A DNA stretch of 64,000 bases from Roseimicrobium sp. ORNL1. GTDB lineage: Bacteria; Verrucomicrobiota; Verrucomicrobiia; Verrucomicrobiales; Verrucomicrobiaceae. The position numbers and the translations under genes are program-made. Where the stretch lies: positions 3,782,001-3,846,000 of the forward strand of contig NZ_CP049143.1 in NCBI RefSeq assembly GCF_011044495.1, written 5' to 3'. This document shows, one piece after another, positions 31,454 to 47,397 of this stretch (position 1 is its first letter; every line of letters starts with the position of its first letter). A model generated the notes under the pieces. That model searched no databases, was not told the origin of the DNA, and saw only the letters and a list, made by a program, of their open reading frames with translations.

Positions 31454-31669
31454 ATGCTTGTAACCAAATCCGATCTTGAGCACGCCCAGTGGAGGGTACG
31501 ATTCCTGTCACGTTTGCTAGACATTCATCGCGCCACTCCCCGCCCCGGAGATCAAGAATGGCTCTTGGAGGAGGCAGACTTCTTGCAGCAAATCTCGATG
31601 GCGGAAGCAAGGGTCAAATACGTCCAGGAATTACTGACCGCGATTGATCAGGCCAAAGAAGTGGGATGA
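31454..31669 (+). CDS. HARW-family small protein, copy A
   Basis: A 71-residue, all-helical soluble protein. The pattern SDLEHAQWRVRFLSRLLDIHRAT, then W-x-x-EE-x-x-FL and a late MAE, is shared with three other tiny proteins in this window (37704, 45554, 45378): core [HA]-x-W-[RK]-V-[RK]-F, then L-x-x-[LI/M]-H, then HW or EW plus E-x4-L. No similarity to a named family is known to me. The predicted structure is a two-helix hairpin. Such size and basic/acidic patterning could suit a protein-binding adaptor, but no function is assigned. Confidence 0.6.
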   Translation: MLVTKSDLEHAQWRVRFLSRLLDIHRATPRPGDQEWLLEEADFLQQISMAEARVKYVQELLTAIDQAKEVG

Positions 31670-31714: not shown

Positions 31715-31960
31715 CTAGGGCGTTACTTCGAACAAGCAACCCCCGCTACCGAAGGGGGTAATACGATCCGCTGCCCGCATAATGCTCCAAATGCGAGGCA
31801 GGTCTTCGAGCACATCGGGGCAGTGGGTGCGGACGGCTTCCACGACTTCCTGAAGGCCAAACGGAGCGGAAAAGAATCTACACGTTTCCACAGACGGTCT
31901 GCGCAGGGGTGATACGCGGGCAGGGGCGTGAATAGAGAGGTTGAAGTCATCCTCGGTCTT
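31715..31960 (-). pseudogene. Decayed gene downstream of the uvrA paralogue
   Basis: An open minus-strand frame of 81 residues without an early start codon reads EDDFNLSIHAPARVSP ... GLQEVVEAVRTHCPDVLEDLP ... IWSIMRAADRITPFGSGG, with coding-like composition. Just upstream, another frame reads RLNEGWFEFLDGGEVKD before a stop at 31947, so the two may be parts of one gene split by a frameshift. No family is recognised. The 5' portion overlaps the uvrA-like 3' end. Confidence 0.4.
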
Positions 31961-31999: not shown

Positions 32000-33624
32000 T
32001 CAGACGCCATTCGTCCGCTCGGCCCGAGCCAGCTCCGCAGCAAGGAAGGGCGCGGTACGGCTGTCTTTTGCTGCGGCCACTTGCCGCGGGGTTCCGACTG
32101 CTACCAAGCTCCCGCCAGCGTCTCCCGAGCCCGGCCCCACGTCGATCACCCAATCCGCTTGCGCCACCGCCCGCATGTCGTGCTCGATCATGACGACCGT
32201 GTTGCCCGCGGTAACGAGCAGCTGCAACTGGGCCATCAGCCGGTCGGCATCGGAGGCATGCAGGCCGGTGGTGGGCTCATCGAGCACATACAAGTTGCGT
32301 CCCCGCTGGCTCCGCTGGAGTTCGGTCGCCAGCTTGATGCGCTGGGCTTCTCCACCGGACAGTTCTGTGGCTGGTTGGCCCAGCCGCAAGTAGCCGAGAC
32401 CGATGTCACGCAGCAGCAACAGGGGGCGGAGTACAGTGTCTTCTTCCGCAAAGAAGTCGCAGGCTTCATCCACGGTCATTCTCAGGACCTCGGCGATGTT
32501 TTTTCCGTTCCAGCGCACCTTAAGCGTGGCCTCGTTGTAGCGCGCGCCGTGGCAAGTCGAGCAGGGCGCATAGACACTGGGCATGAACAAGAGTTCGACA
32601 CTCACAAATCCCTCCCCCTCACAGGTTTCGCAGCGTCCTTTCGGCACATTGAAGGAGAAGCGCCCCGCGTCGTAGTGGCGGCGACGGGCGTCCGGGGTAG
32701 CGGCGAAGAGCTTGCGGACATGATCAAAGAGGCCGGTGTAGGTGGCGAGGTTGGATCGCGGGGTGCGACCAATGGGCTTCTGATCCACCTGCACCAGACG
32801 CTGCACGGCATCCACATCACCAGCCAGGTGACCACCGGTGGTCTCCATCACCGCCGGGCTCTCTCCATCGCCAGCGTCGGTGGAATCGTCCTCCGGCTCG
32901 TGACCTAGATGCAACCGGAGGAGCTCGGGCAAGGCTTGTGCCACCAAGCTGGACTTGCCAGAGCCGGAGATACCCGTAACCGCCGTCAGCACACCCAGCG
33001 GAATCCTCGCGTCCACCCCCCGGAGGTTATGGCGGCGAATTCCAAGCAGCTCCAGCCAGCCGGTGGGCTTACGCGCCAGGCTGGGCGGCGCTGGGATCTC
33101 GTCGAAGAGATAACGTGCCGTGCGGGATTCGGCAATCTCACGCAGACCGGCAGGCGGTCCACTGTAGAGCACGCAACCGCCATTTTCCCCGGCATCCGGC
33201 CCCACATCCACCAGCCATTGAGCGCGCCGCATCAGGTCCAGATCATGCTCCACCACGAACACCGAGTTTCCCGCCCCACGCAGCCTGTCCAACGCATCGT
33301 AAAGCGCGTGGCTGTCAGCGGGATGCAGGCCGGCGGAGGGTTCATCCAGGACGTAAATTACCCCAAACAGCAGCGAGCTGATCTGCGTGGCCAGCCGCAG
33401 TCGCTGCATTTCCCCGGCGGAAAGAGTCGGTGTGGCACGGTCAAGCGTCAGGTAGCCCAAGCCGAGTCTGTCGAGCTGCCGCAATCGCGCCACCACTCCC
33501 TCAGCCAAACGCTGCGCGGCCAGTCGCTTTTCCTCCGAGAGCGCGGAGGTGCGGCGAACATCGGGGGCCGCGCTATGAACCGCCCGCCCAGAGACCTCTC
33601 GCTTGGCGCGGTCTCGCCGGGTCG
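32000..33624 (-). pseudogene. UvrA paralogue, C-terminal portion (after frameshift)
   Basis: The same gene as 33625-34662 but in another frame. The frame is open from 33624 and an internal ATG lies at 33508. It contains the UvrA block LAAQRLAEGVVARLRQLDRLGLGYLTL, the first signature TPTLSAGEMQRLRLATQ with YVLDEPSAGLHP, the second Walker A ([15 protein letters not shown]), zinc motif Cys pairs (GRCETCEGEG, CSTCHGARY), and a second signature ELSGGEAQRIKLATEL with YVLDEPTTGLHASD. Combined with the N-terminal part it would be about 885 residues, the short UvrA-like class (UvrA2/DrrC type), often linked to DNA adduct or drug tolerance rather than core repair. Confidence 0.85.
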
Positions 33625-34662
33625 CTACAGCATCGGTTTCACCCGCGGCGTGACCGGTGAAGTCTCCCCGGCAATCGGCTCCAGCAGTTGCGCGAGCTGG
33701 TTCAGCGGCATTTGCAAGAACTCGCCAATGTCCAATCCGGCGAAGGTCACCGACAGGGCTTCGCGCTTGAGTCGTTTGCCCTTACACTCCGGGCACGGTT
33801 TTCCCTGCATGAAGCGTGAAACACGCTTTCTCATCAGCGCGCTCTGGGTGTGGGCAAAGGTGTGCAGCACATAACGCCGCGCCCCGGTGAACGTTCCCAT
33901 ATAGCTGGGTTCCATCTTGCGCTTCAGGGCAACGCGGGTCTGCTCCGGCGTGAAGCCCGCATACACCGGTACCGTGGGGGATTCCTCCGTGTAGAGAATC
34001 CAGTCGCGGTCCTTTTTTGGCAAATCCCGCCAAGGCCGATCCACATCGTAACCCATGCTCACCAGAATATCGCGCAGGTTCTGGCCCTGCCAGGCCGGAG
34101 GCCAGGAAGCGATGGTCCGGTCGCGAATCGTCAGCGACGGGTCCGGCACCATCGCGGACTCGGTGACCTCAAATACATGGCCCAGTCCGTGACAGACCGG
34201 ACAGGCTCCCTGCGGTGTGTTGGGGGAAAAATCCTCTGCATACAGCATGGGTTGACCGGCGGGATAAGCCCCAGCGCGCGAATACATCAACCGCACCAAG
34301 CTGGAGAGTGTGGTCAGGCTGCCCACGGACGAGCGCGCATTATTGCCACCTCGCTGTTGCTGAAGTGCCACGGCGGGCGGCAGACCGTCAATGGAAGTGA
34401 CGTCCGGTACGCCCGCTTGGTCGATCAAGCGCCTCGCATAAGGGGCGACCGACTCGAAATAGCGCCGCTGGGCCTCCGCGAAAATCGTTCCAAAGGCGAG
34501 CGACGATTTGCCGGACCCCGAAACGCCGGAGAAGACCACCAGCGCGTTGCGAGGGATGTCCACCTCCACGTCCTTGAGGTTGTGCTCCCGTGCACCGCGG
34601 ACTTGGACGAACCCATTGGAGCCCTCAGCAGGAAGAGAGACCGTTAAAGCGGGCTGGGGCAT
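33625..34662 (-). pseudogene. UvrA paralogue, N-terminal portion (frameshifted)
   Basis: 345 codons with the first Walker A ([22 protein letters not shown]), [15 protein letters not shown], a zinc-finger half (CPVCHGLGHVF), and later CPECKGKRLKREAL, all UvrA features. The frame stops at 33625, after LEPIAGETSPVTPRVKPML. In the -1 frame the protein goes straight on to the C-terminal part, so one base is missing or two are extra near 33625. It could be a real pseudogene, a sequencing error, or (less likely) programmed shifting; no slippery heptamer is evident at the junction. It probably encoded an ATP-dependent DNA-damage-binding protein. Confidence 0.85.
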
Positions 34663-36996: not shown

Positions 36997-37488
36997 ATGA
37001 ATCTAAACACGCTCTCTGATTTGTATGTTCACGAACTCAAGGATCTCTATAGCGCCGAAAAGCAACTGCTGAAGGCTCTTCCCAAGATGGCAAAGGCGGC
37101 TACCAATGCCGATCTCAAAGCTGGCTTTCAGCAGCATTTGGAAGAAACCAAGGAGCATGCCGCGCGGCTAGAGAAAGTGCTGGCAGGACGCGAGGCCAGC
37201 ACGCGTGGTCCCAAATGCAAAGCGATGGAAGGACTCATCGCGGAAGGCTCCGACTTGATGGAAGAGGAAGGCGACCCCGAAGTGCTCGACGCGGGTCTTA
37301 TTGTGGCTGCCCAGAAGGTGGAGCACTATGAAATCGCGGGCTACGGCTCGGTCTGTACGTTCGCCAAACTTCTGGGAGATAAGGCGGGCCTGGAGCTGTT
37401 GAAGCTGACGATTAACGAAGAGGAATCCACGGACAAGAAGCTGACGAAACTTGCAACGTCGGTGATCAATCTTGAAGCCTCCAAGTAG
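36997..37488 (+). CDS. DUF892 ferritin-like protein (YciE/YciF family)
   Basis: The start at 36997 gives MNLNTLSDLYVHELKDLYSAEKQLLKAL, the standard opening of the family. At 163 residues it is the usual length, with a four-helix ferritin-like bundle. Candidate metal ligands are the Glu and His of HELKDLYSAE, QHLEETKEH and KVEHYEIAGY. Family members are induced under stress; the biochemical role is not firmly known. The IS5 element ends 60 bp upstream, so native regulation may be changed. A strong terminator follows. Confidence 0.93.
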   Translation: MNLNTLSDLYVHELKDLYSAEKQLLKALPKMAKAATNADLKAGFQQHLEETKEHAARLEKVLAGREASTRGPKCKAMEGLIAEGSDLMEEEGDPEVLDAGLIVAAQKVEHYEIAGYGSVCTFAKLLGDKAGLELLKLTINEEESTDKKLTKLATSVINLEASK

Positions 37489-37703: not shown

Positions 37704-37949
37704 ATGGAGCCTACTGCCTCGAATCTCGAAATGTTCTATCACGCCCGATGGCGAGTGAGATTTGTACGGCATCTTGCTGAGATGCATGAGACCAACCAGC
37801 GCAGAGGGACAGAAAGCTGGTATGAGGAGAAGGCCGCTTTGCTACAACGTCTCCAACTGGCTGAGGTAGAGCTGCACCGATTTCCTGCACACTGGGAAGG
37901 AGTGTACAAAGAGGACAAAGGAGATTCTGCCCCCGGAACCCGGGTCTAG
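37704..37949 (+). CDS. HARW-family small protein, copy B
   Basis: An 81-residue protein. The start MEPTASNLEMFYHARWRVRF is supported by copy C, which begins MEPTPERIQDFRHARWKVKF. Shared later positions are HL-x2-MHE, ESW-x-EE, LLQR-x2-LAE and the RFPAHWEGVYK end (copy C: NYPKEWNDLYP). All helical, no signal peptide. It is convergent with the TPR-like gene at 37964, with stops 14 nt apart. Unknown family, four copies in this window. Confidence 0.7.
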   Translation: MEPTASNLEMFYHARWRVRFVRHLAEMHETNQRRGTESWYEEKAALLQRLQLAEVELHRFPAHWEGVYKEDKGDSAPGTRV

Positions 37950-42506: not shown

Positions 42507-42857
42507 TCAATGAACGTCTCTACCGCTTTCGCTTTCTTCGTCGTCGCACTCATTGAGCAGCTCCTCCAAGTCCACAGTGGGCGGATAGCCAACTTCTTCG
42601 ACTTCGAAGTAAGGGTGTGCGCCTCCCTCACCCGCAAAGGCAAAAGCCATGTCTTCCCTGCTGACATTTCCCGCCTCTTCCAGACTGTTCAGTACCTTGA
42701 AAGCAAAACCTTCAAACCTCACCGCATCCGCGCCCACGCTGCATGCGCGAATCCCAGCGGCGTTCTGCTCCGTTAGTTGAGCGACCTCGCTCACGGTCAG
42801 CACCAGTCCGAAGGGGCAAAGAGCCGAAGATGGAGTTCTGATGGTCTCGAAGTACAT
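42507..42857 (-). CDS. Hypothetical protein
   Basis: A 116-residue, rather acidic protein with no signal peptide. It contains VSEVAQLTEQNAAGIRACSVGADAVRFEGFAFKVL and ends in a strongly acidic Glu/Asp-rich tail (DLEELLNECDDEESES). No family recognised. It sits 3 nt after the stop of the tiny lipoprotein gene at 42861 in the same direction. Confidence 0.5.
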   Translation of the reverse strand: MYFETIRTPSSALCPFGLVLTVSEVAQLTEQNAAGIRACSVGADAVRFEGFAFKVLNSLEEAGNVSREDMAFAFAGEGGAHPYFEVEEVGYPPTVDLEELLNECDDEESESGRDVH

Positions 42858-43149: not shown

Positions 43150-43353
43150 TTAACCCCAAAAATCATCAATGTCGGACCGGGTAACCGACTCAGGCGGGTC
43201 GTCGATTTCCATCACATTTCTCACCAGTTCGCCCGGGTAGTTGGCAAATGGAATGTCACCGTGGAAGAAGACAACTTTTTCTCCACGTTCATAGCGCTCG
43301 GCTTCCACGCAGGCGGAACCTGCGCCTTTCAACTGGACAAGATACAACTTCAT
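43150..43353 (-). CDS. Hypothetical small protein
   Basis: A 67-residue protein, MKLYLVQLKGAGSACVEAERYERGEKVVFFHGDIPFANYP, then a short acidic end (SDIDDFWG). It reads like a small beta-rich domain. No family recognised. It lies 12 nt after the terminator of the gene at 43448, so it has its own promoter or is weakly read through. Confidence 0.55.
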   Translation of the reverse strand: MKLYLVQLKGAGSACVEAERYERGEKVVFFHGDIPFANYPGELVRNVMEIDDPPESVTRSDIDDFWG

Positions 43354-43777: not shown

Positions 43778-44091
43778 AGCGAATTGGGATTACATTCCTA
43801 ACTCGCAATTGCAGGCAATACTGCGCGTGCTCGAAAAACTTTCCGGTTATGCGACGCGTTAATTTCCTCCACCAAGTACGACTACATCCTCCGGCATTGA
43901 TGAGTAGCCAAGGCTTTCCCAGACTATCCAGGACGTGAGGCTTTCTGCACGATTTTTATAAGAGGCTGCCCTGAATAAGCCCTAGGGGTTGATACTCATG
44001 CTTTTCAACTGCCGCAATCTCAGTCAAATGCCCTCGTTGCGATTGGAAACAATCGCTCGGCATTGAAACCCACAAACAACCATACCTCACG
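43778..44091. other. Intergenic region with a paralogue remnant
   Basis: On the minus strand near 43893-43945 the frame reads KPHVLDSLGKPWLLIN, closely matching KPVLLDDQGKPWLLLTE of the 58-residue gene at 45187-45363. No start codon or full protein is present, so it is a remnant. The rest presumably holds the promoter of the outer-membrane-like gene at 44092. Confidence 0.45.
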
Positions 44092-45186: not shown

Positions 45187-45363
45187 TTACTCTCCCCGTC
45201 TTGGACAGCTTGGTCCGTGCTCAAAATATCTTGGTTCTGTGAGCAAGAGCCAAGGCTTTCCTTGGTCGTCTAGCAATACCGGCTTTCCCTCCCATTCCCC
45301 CGTTCCCCCCTCAATCTCGAAGGAGGGCCCGTCGGGGTTTTTGATGTGGTAGCGATGGGGCAT
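45187..45363 (-). CDS. 58-residue hypothetical protein
   Basis: It begins MPHRYHIKNPDGPSFEIEG and continues GEWEGKPVLLDDQGKPWLLLTEPRYFEHG, then a Cys/Arg tail. It reads as a small beta-sheet protein. It starts 15 nt after the stop of HARW-family copy D, so C, D and this gene form a three-gene unit. A clear remnant of a paralogue lies near 43893-43945. No known family. Confidence 0.6.
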   Translation of the reverse strand: MPHRYHIKNPDGPSFEIEGGTGEWEGKPVLLDDQGKPWLLLTEPRYFEHGPSCPRRGE

Positions 45364-45377
45364 GCAGCGGGATCATT

Positions 45378-45557
45378 CTACTTACCGCTCAAATTCTCAA
45401 GCCGGATTCGGGCCATGATAAGATTGTCCAGGATCGCCGATTCCTTCAATGCCCAGTGCATGGAACTGTCTTTTGCGGAGCGGTGCGCTGCAAGCTGCCT
45501 TTCCAGCAATGCGATTAGCTTTCTGAGTGTGTCGGGGTCTTCCAGTGGAGATTTCAC
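45378..45557 (-). CDS. HARW-family small protein, copy D (divergent)
   Basis: A 59-residue protein with a GTG start at 45557 that overlaps the TGA of copy C (GTGA), so it is translationally coupled. Sequence VKSPLEDPDTLRKLIALLERQLAAHRSAKDSSMHW then ALKESAILDN and MARIRLENLSG. The spacing of H, S-x-HW, E, L and MA matches copies A-C although the HARW block itself is lost. All-helical, unknown function. Confidence 0.6.
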   Translation of the reverse strand: MKSPLEDPDTLRKLIALLERQLAAHRSAKDSSMHWALKESAILDNLIMARIRLENLSGK

Positions 45558-45763
45558 GGGTAGAGATCATTCCACTCTTTGGGGTAATTAGACAAGGTCT
45601 CCTTGGCCATCGCATGCCGATTGAGGAACTCGCCATGTTCTTGGAGCCAATGTACACTACCTTTGTTTTCCTTGCATTCATGCAGGGCAATGAGGTGAGC
45701 GGTGAATTTCACTTTCCATCGGGCGTGCCTGAAGTCTTGGATTCTTTCGGGAGTCGGTTCCAT
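45554..45763 (-). CDS. HARW-family small protein, copy C
   Basis: A 69-residue protein; start MEPTPERIQDFRHARWKVKFTAHLIALHE chosen to match copy B (MEPT...HARWRVRF). Later positions SVHW-x2-E-x2-EFL, AMAKETL and NYPKEWNDLYP also match copy B. Upstream extension to 45886 is unlikely. Coupled to copy D by a GTGA overlap. Together with A, B and D it defines an unnamed family. Confidence 0.7.
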   Translation of the reverse strand: MEPTPERIQDFRHARWKVKFTAHLIALHECKENKGSVHWLQEHGEFLNRHAMAKETLSNYPKEWNDLYP

Positions 45764-46224
45764 GGGGAGTGGAGAGGGGCATGCGATTCTCCTTTCGCAG
45801 TTCCTCCCCTCAGTGGATGTGCATCGATTACCCAGAATTGCAACCATTTGAACGACCACAGCAAACCACACCCCGAGGCAACGCAATGCATCATGATATG
45901 ATGATGCGTACTACTGAGGCAGCCCGCGAGAAGACGTGTGAATCTCGACCCACCTGATTTGCGATGCGAAGCGATCACCTGGTGGTTCCGCGTCGAGTCA
46001 TCTACCTTCTCACGAGGATCTTTAGGTCCGAGACGTGGCGCCGCACCGCGCGCCTCCGCACGCTCCAACAGTTCCGGGATGTTCACGTTGGCACTCCAGA
46101 TTCCTGAAAGGACTTGCTGACCGAGAATGCTATTCGGCAGGAACGCCCTTCGACTGTGGAGGAATTTCTCGATCCTGCCACGAACGAAATTTTGGTAGCC
46201 TTCAAGGCCTGCTATCCAGGACAA
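45764..46224 (-). pseudogene. Possible gene or remnant behind the winged-helix gene
   Basis: The open minus-strand frame that starts at 46224 overlaps the winged-helix stop by 23 bp and reads MSWIAGLEGYQNFVRGRIEKF, SILGQQVLSGIWSANVNIPELLERAEARGAAPRLG and STRNHQVIASHRKSGGSRF. That first 105 residues look coding. The following part (to 45709) does not, and runs into copy C. Probably a gene that has lost its 3' half. No family recognised. Confidence 0.35.
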
Positions 46225-46513
46225 AGCGAATAAGTCCGTCCACCGTGCAGTGAGATTCTACCGGATGTCGCAGTGGCAACTTCCTATTGAGCGTATAGGC
46301 GTTACGGCGGCCTTCTTTCGTGCGTTTCAGGACTCCCCCAGCCTCAAGTTCTGTAACGATTTTATGCGCGGCTCGTTCGGTAATGCCAACTGTGGCCGCA
46401 AGATCGCGCAACCGGATGTGCGGGTCTGCAGCGAGGCAAAGAAGTACATGGGCGTGGTTTGTAAAAAACGTCCATGCACCGGATTCTCGCACGGGAGGTG
46501 ACGGTTTTTTCAT
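46202..46513 (-). CDS. Winged-helix transcriptional regulator
   Basis: A 103-residue protein. TFFTNHAHVLLCLAADPHIRLRDLAATVGITERAAHKIVTELEAGGVLKRTKEGRRNAYTL is a clear winged helix of the ArsR/MarR type: helix-turn-helix at about residues 34-60 and the wing at GRRNAYTL. It is divergent from the SbtA-type transporter (start 46627), with a 113-bp gap that should hold both promoters and the operator. The regulated gene is thus likely the transporter. Confidence 0.88.
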   Translation of the reverse strand: MKKPSPPVRESGAWTFFTNHAHVLLCLAADPHIRLRDLAATVGITERAAHKIVTELEAGGVLKRTKEGRRNAYTLNRKLPLRHPVESHCTVDGLIRFVLDSRP

Positions 46514-46626: not shown

Positions 46627-47397
46627 ATGGATGTCCTTAGCCCCCTCTCATCAAGCCTACTTTCTCCCGTCATACTCGCCTTTGGACTCGGCATAGTTGC
46701 AACACTTCTAAAAAGCGACCTGAGCTTTCCTGAAGGATTACACTCTGCGCTCACTATCTATCTGCTTTTTGCCATCGGGCTTAAAGGGGGCATGAAACTG
46801 GAGGGAATGAGCCTGAGTGTAGTAGGGGCGCCTCTGCTGTGTGCCGTCCTGCTCAGCCTAGCCATTCCCGTGTGGTGCTTTTACTTGCTGAAAGCCTTAG
46901 TTGGCCTGGATGCCACGAACGCCGGAGCTCTTGCGGCTCACTACGGTTCTGTTTCTGCGGTGACCTTCGGGGCCGCGCTGGCTTTTCTGGAGAACGCGAA
47001 AGTCCTCGTAGAAGGCTACATCCCTGCACTTCTCGCAGTCATGGAAGCCCCAGCGATCCTAGTCGCGGTATTTCTTGCCATGAAGTACCGGACGACCGGC
47101 GGCACCGAGCCCGGTGGTTTCAAAGGCATGCTTCACGACCTGCTAACCGGTAAGGGTATCATCCTGCTGCTTGGAGGCCTCGTAATCGGAGTCTTGTGTG
47201 GCAAACAGGGTTTTGAACAGGTGGCCCCACTCTTTGAGGCGCCGTTCAAAGGAGTGCTCACACTATTTCTGCTGGAGGTGGGGCTCGTCACGGGACGGAA
47301 GCTACATGATCTAAGAACTGTTGGATGGAAATTGGCAGCGTTCGCCATTTTGATGCCAGTGATACATGGCCTCCTCGGGGCGCTGGTAGGCGCCTGA
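46627..47397 (+). CDS. sbtA: SbtA-family sodium/bicarbonate transporter, interrupted by in-frame TGA
   Basis: 256 codons of a hydrophobic protein with about seven membrane segments (LSPVILAFGLGIVATLLKSDLSFPEGL, YLLFAIGLKGGMKLEG, AAHYGSVSAVTFGAALAFLE). These blocks are typical of the SbtA family (Na+-dependent HCO3- import). The frame meets TGA at 47395-47397 in GALVGA-stop-CGLSVGGATVL. The next 69 codons in the same frame are the normal C-terminus (47398-47607). The full length would be about 325 residues. No SbtB-like PII gene follows. The next genes, purK and purE, use bicarbonate, giving a plausible link. Confidence 0.88.
   Translation: MDVLSPLSSSLLSPVILAFGLGIVATLLKSDLSFPEGLHSALTIYLLFAIGLKGGMKLEGMSLSVVGAPLLCAVLLSLAIPVWCFYLLKALVGLDATNAGALAAHYGSVSAVTFGAALAFLENAKVLVEGYIPALLAVMEAPAILVAVFLAMKYRTTGGTEPGGFKGMLHDLLTGKGIILLLGGLVIGVLCGKQGFEQVAPLFEAPFKGVLTLFLLEVGLVTGRKLHDLRTVGWKLAAFAILMPVIHGLLGALVGA

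Follow-up and report, generated by a model that had tools for sequence, protein, structure and literature searches.

A trio of small genes, here called C, D and G, lies on the minus strand at positions 45187 to 45763 of the window, the whole stretch of 64,000 nucleotides of the Roseimicrobium sp. ORNL1 genome that was analysed (contig NZ_CP049143.1, positions 3,782,001 to 3,846,000). The trio and the features that bear on its interpretation are as follows.

31454..31669, plus strand: solitary HARW gene, found by six-frame and profile search
31718..31891, minus strand: gene of the PFTLQEVVEA family, a third recurring small family, beside the HARW gene at 31454
37704..37949, plus strand: solitary HARW gene, found by six-frame and profile search, with a DUF892 gene (36997-37488) just upstream
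43150..43353, minus strand: gene of the VEAD family, 67 aa, a second small family clustering with HARW
about 43896..43943, minus strand: remnant of a G-type gene, KPHVLDSLGKPWLLIN, found with the G profile
45187..45363, minus strand: G, GKPWLLL protein of 58 aa, predicted (at low confidence) to be a five-stranded small beta protein
45378..45557, minus strand: D, divergent HARW-family gene with a GTG start, 59 aa, assigned by profile and tree
45554..45763, minus strand: C, HARW-family gene of the MEPTPE.. clade, 69 aa, assigned by paralogue matches and model
45827..45841, minus strand: GCAATTCTGGGTAAT, candidate shared element 78 bases upstream of C, one mismatch from GCAAW-N4-GGCAAT
46202-46513: winged-helix gene, which ends 438 bases before C
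46627-47397: SbtA-like bicarbonate transporter gene (Pfam Sbt_1), divergent from the winged-helix gene

A previous reading, made from the sequence alone, had described three minus-strand genes for proteins of fewer than 80 residues, joined by a 4-base overlap and a 14-base gap, and the frames are found exactly so. The GTG start of D (45557) lies inside the TGA of C, which ends at 45554, as the coordinates confirm, and 14 bases separate the end of D (45378) from the start of G (45363). Annotation is known to be weak for proteins of this size (<80 residues). By codon usage, C (11.7) and D (6.9) have positive scores, the winged-helix gene a slightly negative one (-1.5) and G, at -9.0, that of non-coding DNA; the case for G as a gene therefore rests on conservation. 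Comparison with close relatives gives pN/pS ratios of 0.34 for C (against L080), 0.37 for D (against L078) and 0.54 for G (against L088), indicating that all three frames are protein-coding despite the atypical codon usage of G. C, D and G are real genes in operon-like spacing.

C has many relatives in its own genome. A search of the 7.96 Mb genome with C as the single query yields 17 places at E<=10, the best 14 of them at E<=0.00125, and a profile of the family, termed HARW, yields 18 matches at E<=0.01. A six-frame search of the window adds to the trio the two plus-strand HARW genes given above and the remnant of a G-type gene. The same profile has 21 matches in G061, the genome of the sister species and the only other member of the genus among the genomes searched; in the 66 other genomes of the taxonomic family it has one match in G023 (E 2.6e-7) and one weak match in G052 (E 0.0067). 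Matches thus occur in 4 of 68 genomes of the family, both genus members included. The HARW-like domain in G023 (L032:1477-2091) is the C-terminal part of a 204-aa protein; no other genome searched outside the genus gave a clear match. In a sample of the phylum, with up to 15 candidates scored per genome, the own genome alone matched (1/387) and the 386 others had no match among those listed. Iteration of the profile over the fetched regions gives 39 HARW, 13 VEAD and 5 G-type sequences, the G remnant being counted among the last.

Database searches return no relative of known function for the three proteins. Pfam (E<=10), PADLOC and PHROGs (both at E<=1) give nothing for C, D or G, and the matches of the three in NCBIfam are at chance level, far below cut-off. 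Neither C nor an alignment of C-type proteins finds a named relative in GTDB contigs, a set that may lack records close to the own genome, and abstracts retrieved in a literature search for the HARW family held nothing on it. As judged from these comparisons, HARW appears to be a new, taxonomically restricted (nearly genus-private) family of small proteins. A PDB sequence search with the HARW profile aligned GALNT9 over 32 positions (E 0.001), a match judged to be due to chance.

The sequence-only reading took both C and D for HARW copies. This stands for C, which is very probably a HARW-family paralogue under purifying selection; it stands for D in a qualified form, as D is divergent and lacks the HARW motif, keeping the H28, W39 and A53 positions. 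Pairwise comparison of C with D gives E 0.18 only. The match of D to the family profile (E 3e-14) is inflated, because D is part of the seed alignment. When the profile is built from the 35 non-D-type members, the four D-type genes are its four best new matches, with D at E 0.002 and the next other sequence at 0.046. Conversely, a D-type profile ranks HARW genes next after its own members, from E 0.003 onward, and comparison of the two profiles gives a probability of 84% (E 8e-6). On these results D is probably a divergent member of the family.

HARW copies that pair between the two species are under purifying selection. Fourteen of the 18 HARW genes of this genome have a reciprocal best partner in G061, and pN is lower than pS in all 14 pairs (ratio 0.10 to 0.67); C and D are among the four genes without such a partner. 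Flanking genes agree at several reciprocal locus pairs among those listed. A tree of the 39 sequences, which are short and leave many nodes weak, contains a C-type clade (MEPTPE.., ten members including the gene at 37704), a second-gene clade (MDPQ..) and a D-type clade. The sister of C is L080, and that of D is a gene at L090 (support 0.93) with a same-strand C-type gene about 0.9 kb downstream of it; the best BLAST match of D in the sister genome is the solitary gene at L087, not the one at L090. The fetched regions hold seven same-strand tandem pairs of HARW genes (C-D, one at L074, two at L084, one at L090 and the matching pair L077/L085). In four of the seven, an MDPQ-type gene comes after a C-type gene; at the trio only does a D-type gene take this second place. 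The remaining HARW genes of the fetched regions, 25 of 39, stand without a tandem partner, and many HARW genes sit amid ordinary housekeeping genes.

The AlphaFold2 model of C is a helical hairpin of high confidence (pLDDT 94.5, pTM 0.76), with helices at residues 5-29 and 37-58. The model was built on an alignment of 34 of the 39 members; as neither H28 nor W39 is present in three of the five omitted members, conservation was counted again over the full set of 39. In that count 36 members have W39, 35 have H28 and 37 have A53, so these positions, all present in both C and D, are not strictly invariant. The members without H28 and W39 are three C-type proteins (L079, L088 and L089), of which those at L079 and L088 adjoin G-type genes. 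Of the 39 members, 37 carry a net basic helix 1 and 35 a net acidic helix 2; in the 34-member model alignment the numbers are 34 and 31. Foldseek comparison of the C model with the PDB gives nothing under E 1. A second structure comparison returns many hairpins at Z 7 to 8, with a top value of 8.2; Z near 8 is the background for a helical hairpin, which is a very common shape. One such match is Aqs1, a phage quorum-sensing anti-activator (PDB 6v7v and 6v7u), a small hairpin like C that aligns over 61 residues at background level (Z 7.6 and 7.5); unlike HARW, Aqs1 is a phage protein by its PDB title, and the HARW profile has no sequence match to it.

Apart from the remnant, G has three relatives: two of full length in this genome and another in the sister species. 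The remnant, which the sequence-only reading had placed at about 43893-43945, is likely to be real, as it scores 15.9 bits against the G profile and the best of 20 shuffled windows scores 11.8. A C-type gene lies within about 1.1 kb of the G-type gene at all four loci (the window, L079, L080 and L088), for which the chance is 0.0026 if neighbours are drawn from all 39 HARW genes, a figure calculated after the fact; in the window itself, the HARW gene nearest to G is D, not C. In this genome 3/3 G genes are near a HARW gene, against 0.016 expected within 1.5 kb (0.034 within 3 kb), and the single G gene of the sister species is likewise near one (1/1). G represents a small family of its own, all of whose genes in the two genomes lie close to C-type HARW genes, and the trio is one local cluster of two nearly genus-private small-protein families. 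Conservation of the gene order of the trio had been set as a test, and it fails: at the three other G loci the neighbouring C-type gene is on the opposite strand, and since order and orientation vary, the trio is not a conserved operon.

The model of G, built on four sequences, has five strands (pLDDT 69.5), and G is probably a small beta-barrel as far as this low-confidence model indicates. Its best structural matches are proteins of the YgdI/YgdR type (DUF903), namely 2ra2, 2k57 and 5cai at Z 4.3, 3.9 and 3.8, of which 2ra2 and 2k57 reach E 0.6 in Foldseek; these are small beta proteins of similar length. G itself has no Pfam match. Two of the three, 2k57 and 5cai, are titled putative lipoproteins, and the N-terminus of G (MPHRYHIKN), read directly from the sequence, displays no hydrophobic stretch and no visible signal peptide or lipobox. 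Weaker matches of the model are C-terminal domains of biotin ligases, followed by Hfq (Z up to 3.4), all matches having Z<=4.3, and a PDB sequence search with G gives nothing under 0.1.

The trio had been placed behind a winged-helix regulator, but that gene is not part of the unit. Genes with 75, 71 and 62% identity to it occur in three other genera, each of them divergent beside an SbtA-like gene, as in the window; no HARW match is found in the genomes of these genera that carry the pair, and no match to the winged-helix gene is found in the sister species, which has 21 HARW genes. The divergent pairing with the SbtA-like gene and the absence from the sister species remove the winged-helix gene from the unit. 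It alone has matches in PADLOC, to models such as SoFic (E 5e-6); these concern helix-turn-helix portions and are taken as generic.

Other small families recur beside HARW genes. VEAD proteins are small and beta-like, with 11 matches in this genome and 10 in G061, and are found in 11 of 68 genomes of the family; two members scanned have no match in Pfam. A HARW gene is found within 3 kb of 7 of the 11 VEAD genes of this genome, or of 4 of the 7 clusters that they form, where 0.08 clusters would be expected; members are also present at L079, L080, L090, L094, L081 and L095. The PFTLQEVVEA family has seven matches at E<=0.01 in each genus member, some of which adjoin HARW or VEAD genes; two of six clusters are within 3 kb of a HARW gene (0.06 expected), and other sites are G000:2303736 and 4654709 and, in the sister species, G061:C15 and C8. 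A union of VEAD and G in one superfamily was considered and dropped, as profile comparison gave no alignment. Inspection by eye further shows a MYFET.. protein (116 and 131 aa) in two HARW-bearing regions, at 42507-42857 and L079:5965-6360; the copy in the window has no match in Pfam.

A stress module had been another suggestion. The window contains YflT and Mn-catalase genes in addition to DUF892, families that also make up general-stress neighbourhoods, as well as a BON gene, and a DUF892 or DUF892-like gene stands beside HARW at 2 of 14 HARW clusters in this genome; unlike such neighbourhoods, HARW loci contain these genes in a minority of cases only. The DUF892-like gene, which adjoins the HARW gene at L081, is below the Pfam cut-off (E 0.00019), and its L095 counterpart has no match. 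A general link was sought in a neighbour scan covering 93 of 137 near and 83 of 99 far genes and comparing the best 25 of 71 and 25 of 87 Pfam families, and was rejected: the near set differs by DUF892 and Transgly_assoc (two each) and OMP_b-brl (three), with otherwise no clear trend among the families listed. The suggestion thus retains local hints and no general signal, and a stress link of HARW genes is doubtful.

Upstream regions provide a candidate control element. The direct-repeat-like pattern GCAAW-N4-GGCAAT has 20 exact copies in the own genome and 7 in G061, whereas the reversed pattern occurs 1 and 2 times, respectively. Of the 27 exact copies, 7 are inside called genes and 20 are not, and four precede the start of a HARW or VEAD gene by 46 to 71 bases. 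In a set of 46 upstream regions that omits the second genes of pairs, the exact pattern occurs in 4, against 0 of 143 controls, and with one mismatch in 7, against 2 of 143, a post hoc comparison. The upstream motif beat four shuffles. Cross-validation between the species against control genes is significant only at widths 12 and 16 (p 0.008 to 0.026), and not at widths 20, 24 and 30 (p 0.08 to 0.75). Because the sequences tested are those from which the motif came, and cross-validation is mixed, it is a lead only.

The best overall explanation might be that the trio encodes chromosomal small accessory proteins that act as dimers or adaptors, a reading that is plausible, if somewhat short of probable. 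Hairpins of the size of C commonly pair into a four-helix bundle. The overlap of the C stop with the D start would let both be translated from one message, allowing the paralogous hairpins to form such a bundle with each other; the conserved basic helix 1 and acidic helix 2 would drive this pairing, or would provide the dimer with a basic surface that a partner could bind. G, as a small SH3- or Sm-like barrel, might bind the same partner or the C-type dimer, and the whole would serve a chromosomal accessory function, possibly stress-induced, rather than a mobile conflict system. This dimer and adaptor mechanism is a more tentative proposal; against it, the C-D pairing appears from the available loci to be unique in detail, the other tandem pairs joining different clades.

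HARW genes might instead be dispersed genomic hitch-hikers, small genes spread by duplication that confer little or no benefit and decay in place. The roughly 20 scattered copies per genome in nearly one genus only, the G remnant and the short divergent HARW copies at L084 (7452-7640) and L090 (5990-6229) are what such a history would leave, but the reciprocal partners of 14 of the 18 own copies, with pN below pS, argue against it. A mobile origin is likewise not indicated: C-type proteins have no relative in viral contigs and C has none in plasmids, and the searches of viral contigs, of plasmids with C and of phages with G gave a single match, of 11 residues, at L175. The hitch-hiker explanation is unlikely.

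A role in nucleic-acid binding like that of Rop/Rom of ColE1 plasmids is distinctly unlikely. Rop is a dimeric RNA binder that binds RNA pairs, and HARW dimers might similarly bind RNA or DNA through the basic helix 1, with G as an Sm/Hfq-like partner. Like C, Rop/Rom is a single helical hairpin of about 60 residues, and its chains and C align over nearly their whole lengths (Z 7.1 to 7.7 over 56-63 residues, rmsd 2.0 to 2.8), but unrelated hairpins match equally well or better. C has no sequence match to the Rop family in Pfam, and HARW, unlike Rop/Rom, is chromosomal and multi-copy; moreover, despite the basic helix 1, the mean total charge of the 34 aligned members is -0.68, and although G weakly matches Hfq chains, its top matches are of the YgdI/YgdR type. 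An extended scheme is quite improbable as a whole: about 20 paralogous hairpins would form a genus-private set, some co-translated as mixed pairs and some joined by small beta-barrels and mini winged helices that are likewise private, and, under a common GCAAT direct-repeat control element, these hairpins would serve in stress control as interchangeable adaptors for nucleic acid or protein, each built as a four-helix bundle.

The accessory-protein reading is also to be preferred to the toxin-antitoxin-like module that had been proposed. C with D, or G with C or D, might form such a pair, as two or three tiny genes overlap or lie close together and G is near a C-type gene at every locus; however, C and D are paralogues of one fold, most HARW genes are unpaired, G-type genes are present at 3 places in this genome against 18 HARW genes and in varying orientation, and no toxin or antitoxin family is found in Pfam, NCBIfam or PADLOC, making this explanation very improbable. 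The idea of an anti-phage defence module, suggested by the clustering of small genes of unknown function, is extremely improbable given that C, D, G and the VEAD protein have no PADLOC match, that C, D and G have none in PHROGs, and that partner copies are present in both species, many adjoining housekeeping genes.

The HARW set comprises 39 sequences from two species and shows purifying selection, a confidently predicted fold and recurring partners, and yet C, D and G have no Pfam or above-cut-off NCBIfam match; it would be useful for studying the origin, multiplication and retention of a lineage-specific family of small proteins. Inspection of the window by eye also shows an ATG at 45780, with GGAG upstream, that opens a short frame overlapping the start of C in another frame. 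Farther from the trio, the adjacent minus-strand frames at 32000-33508 and 33625-34662 read like two UvrA-type ABC halves, which we take to be possibly a broken or split gene.
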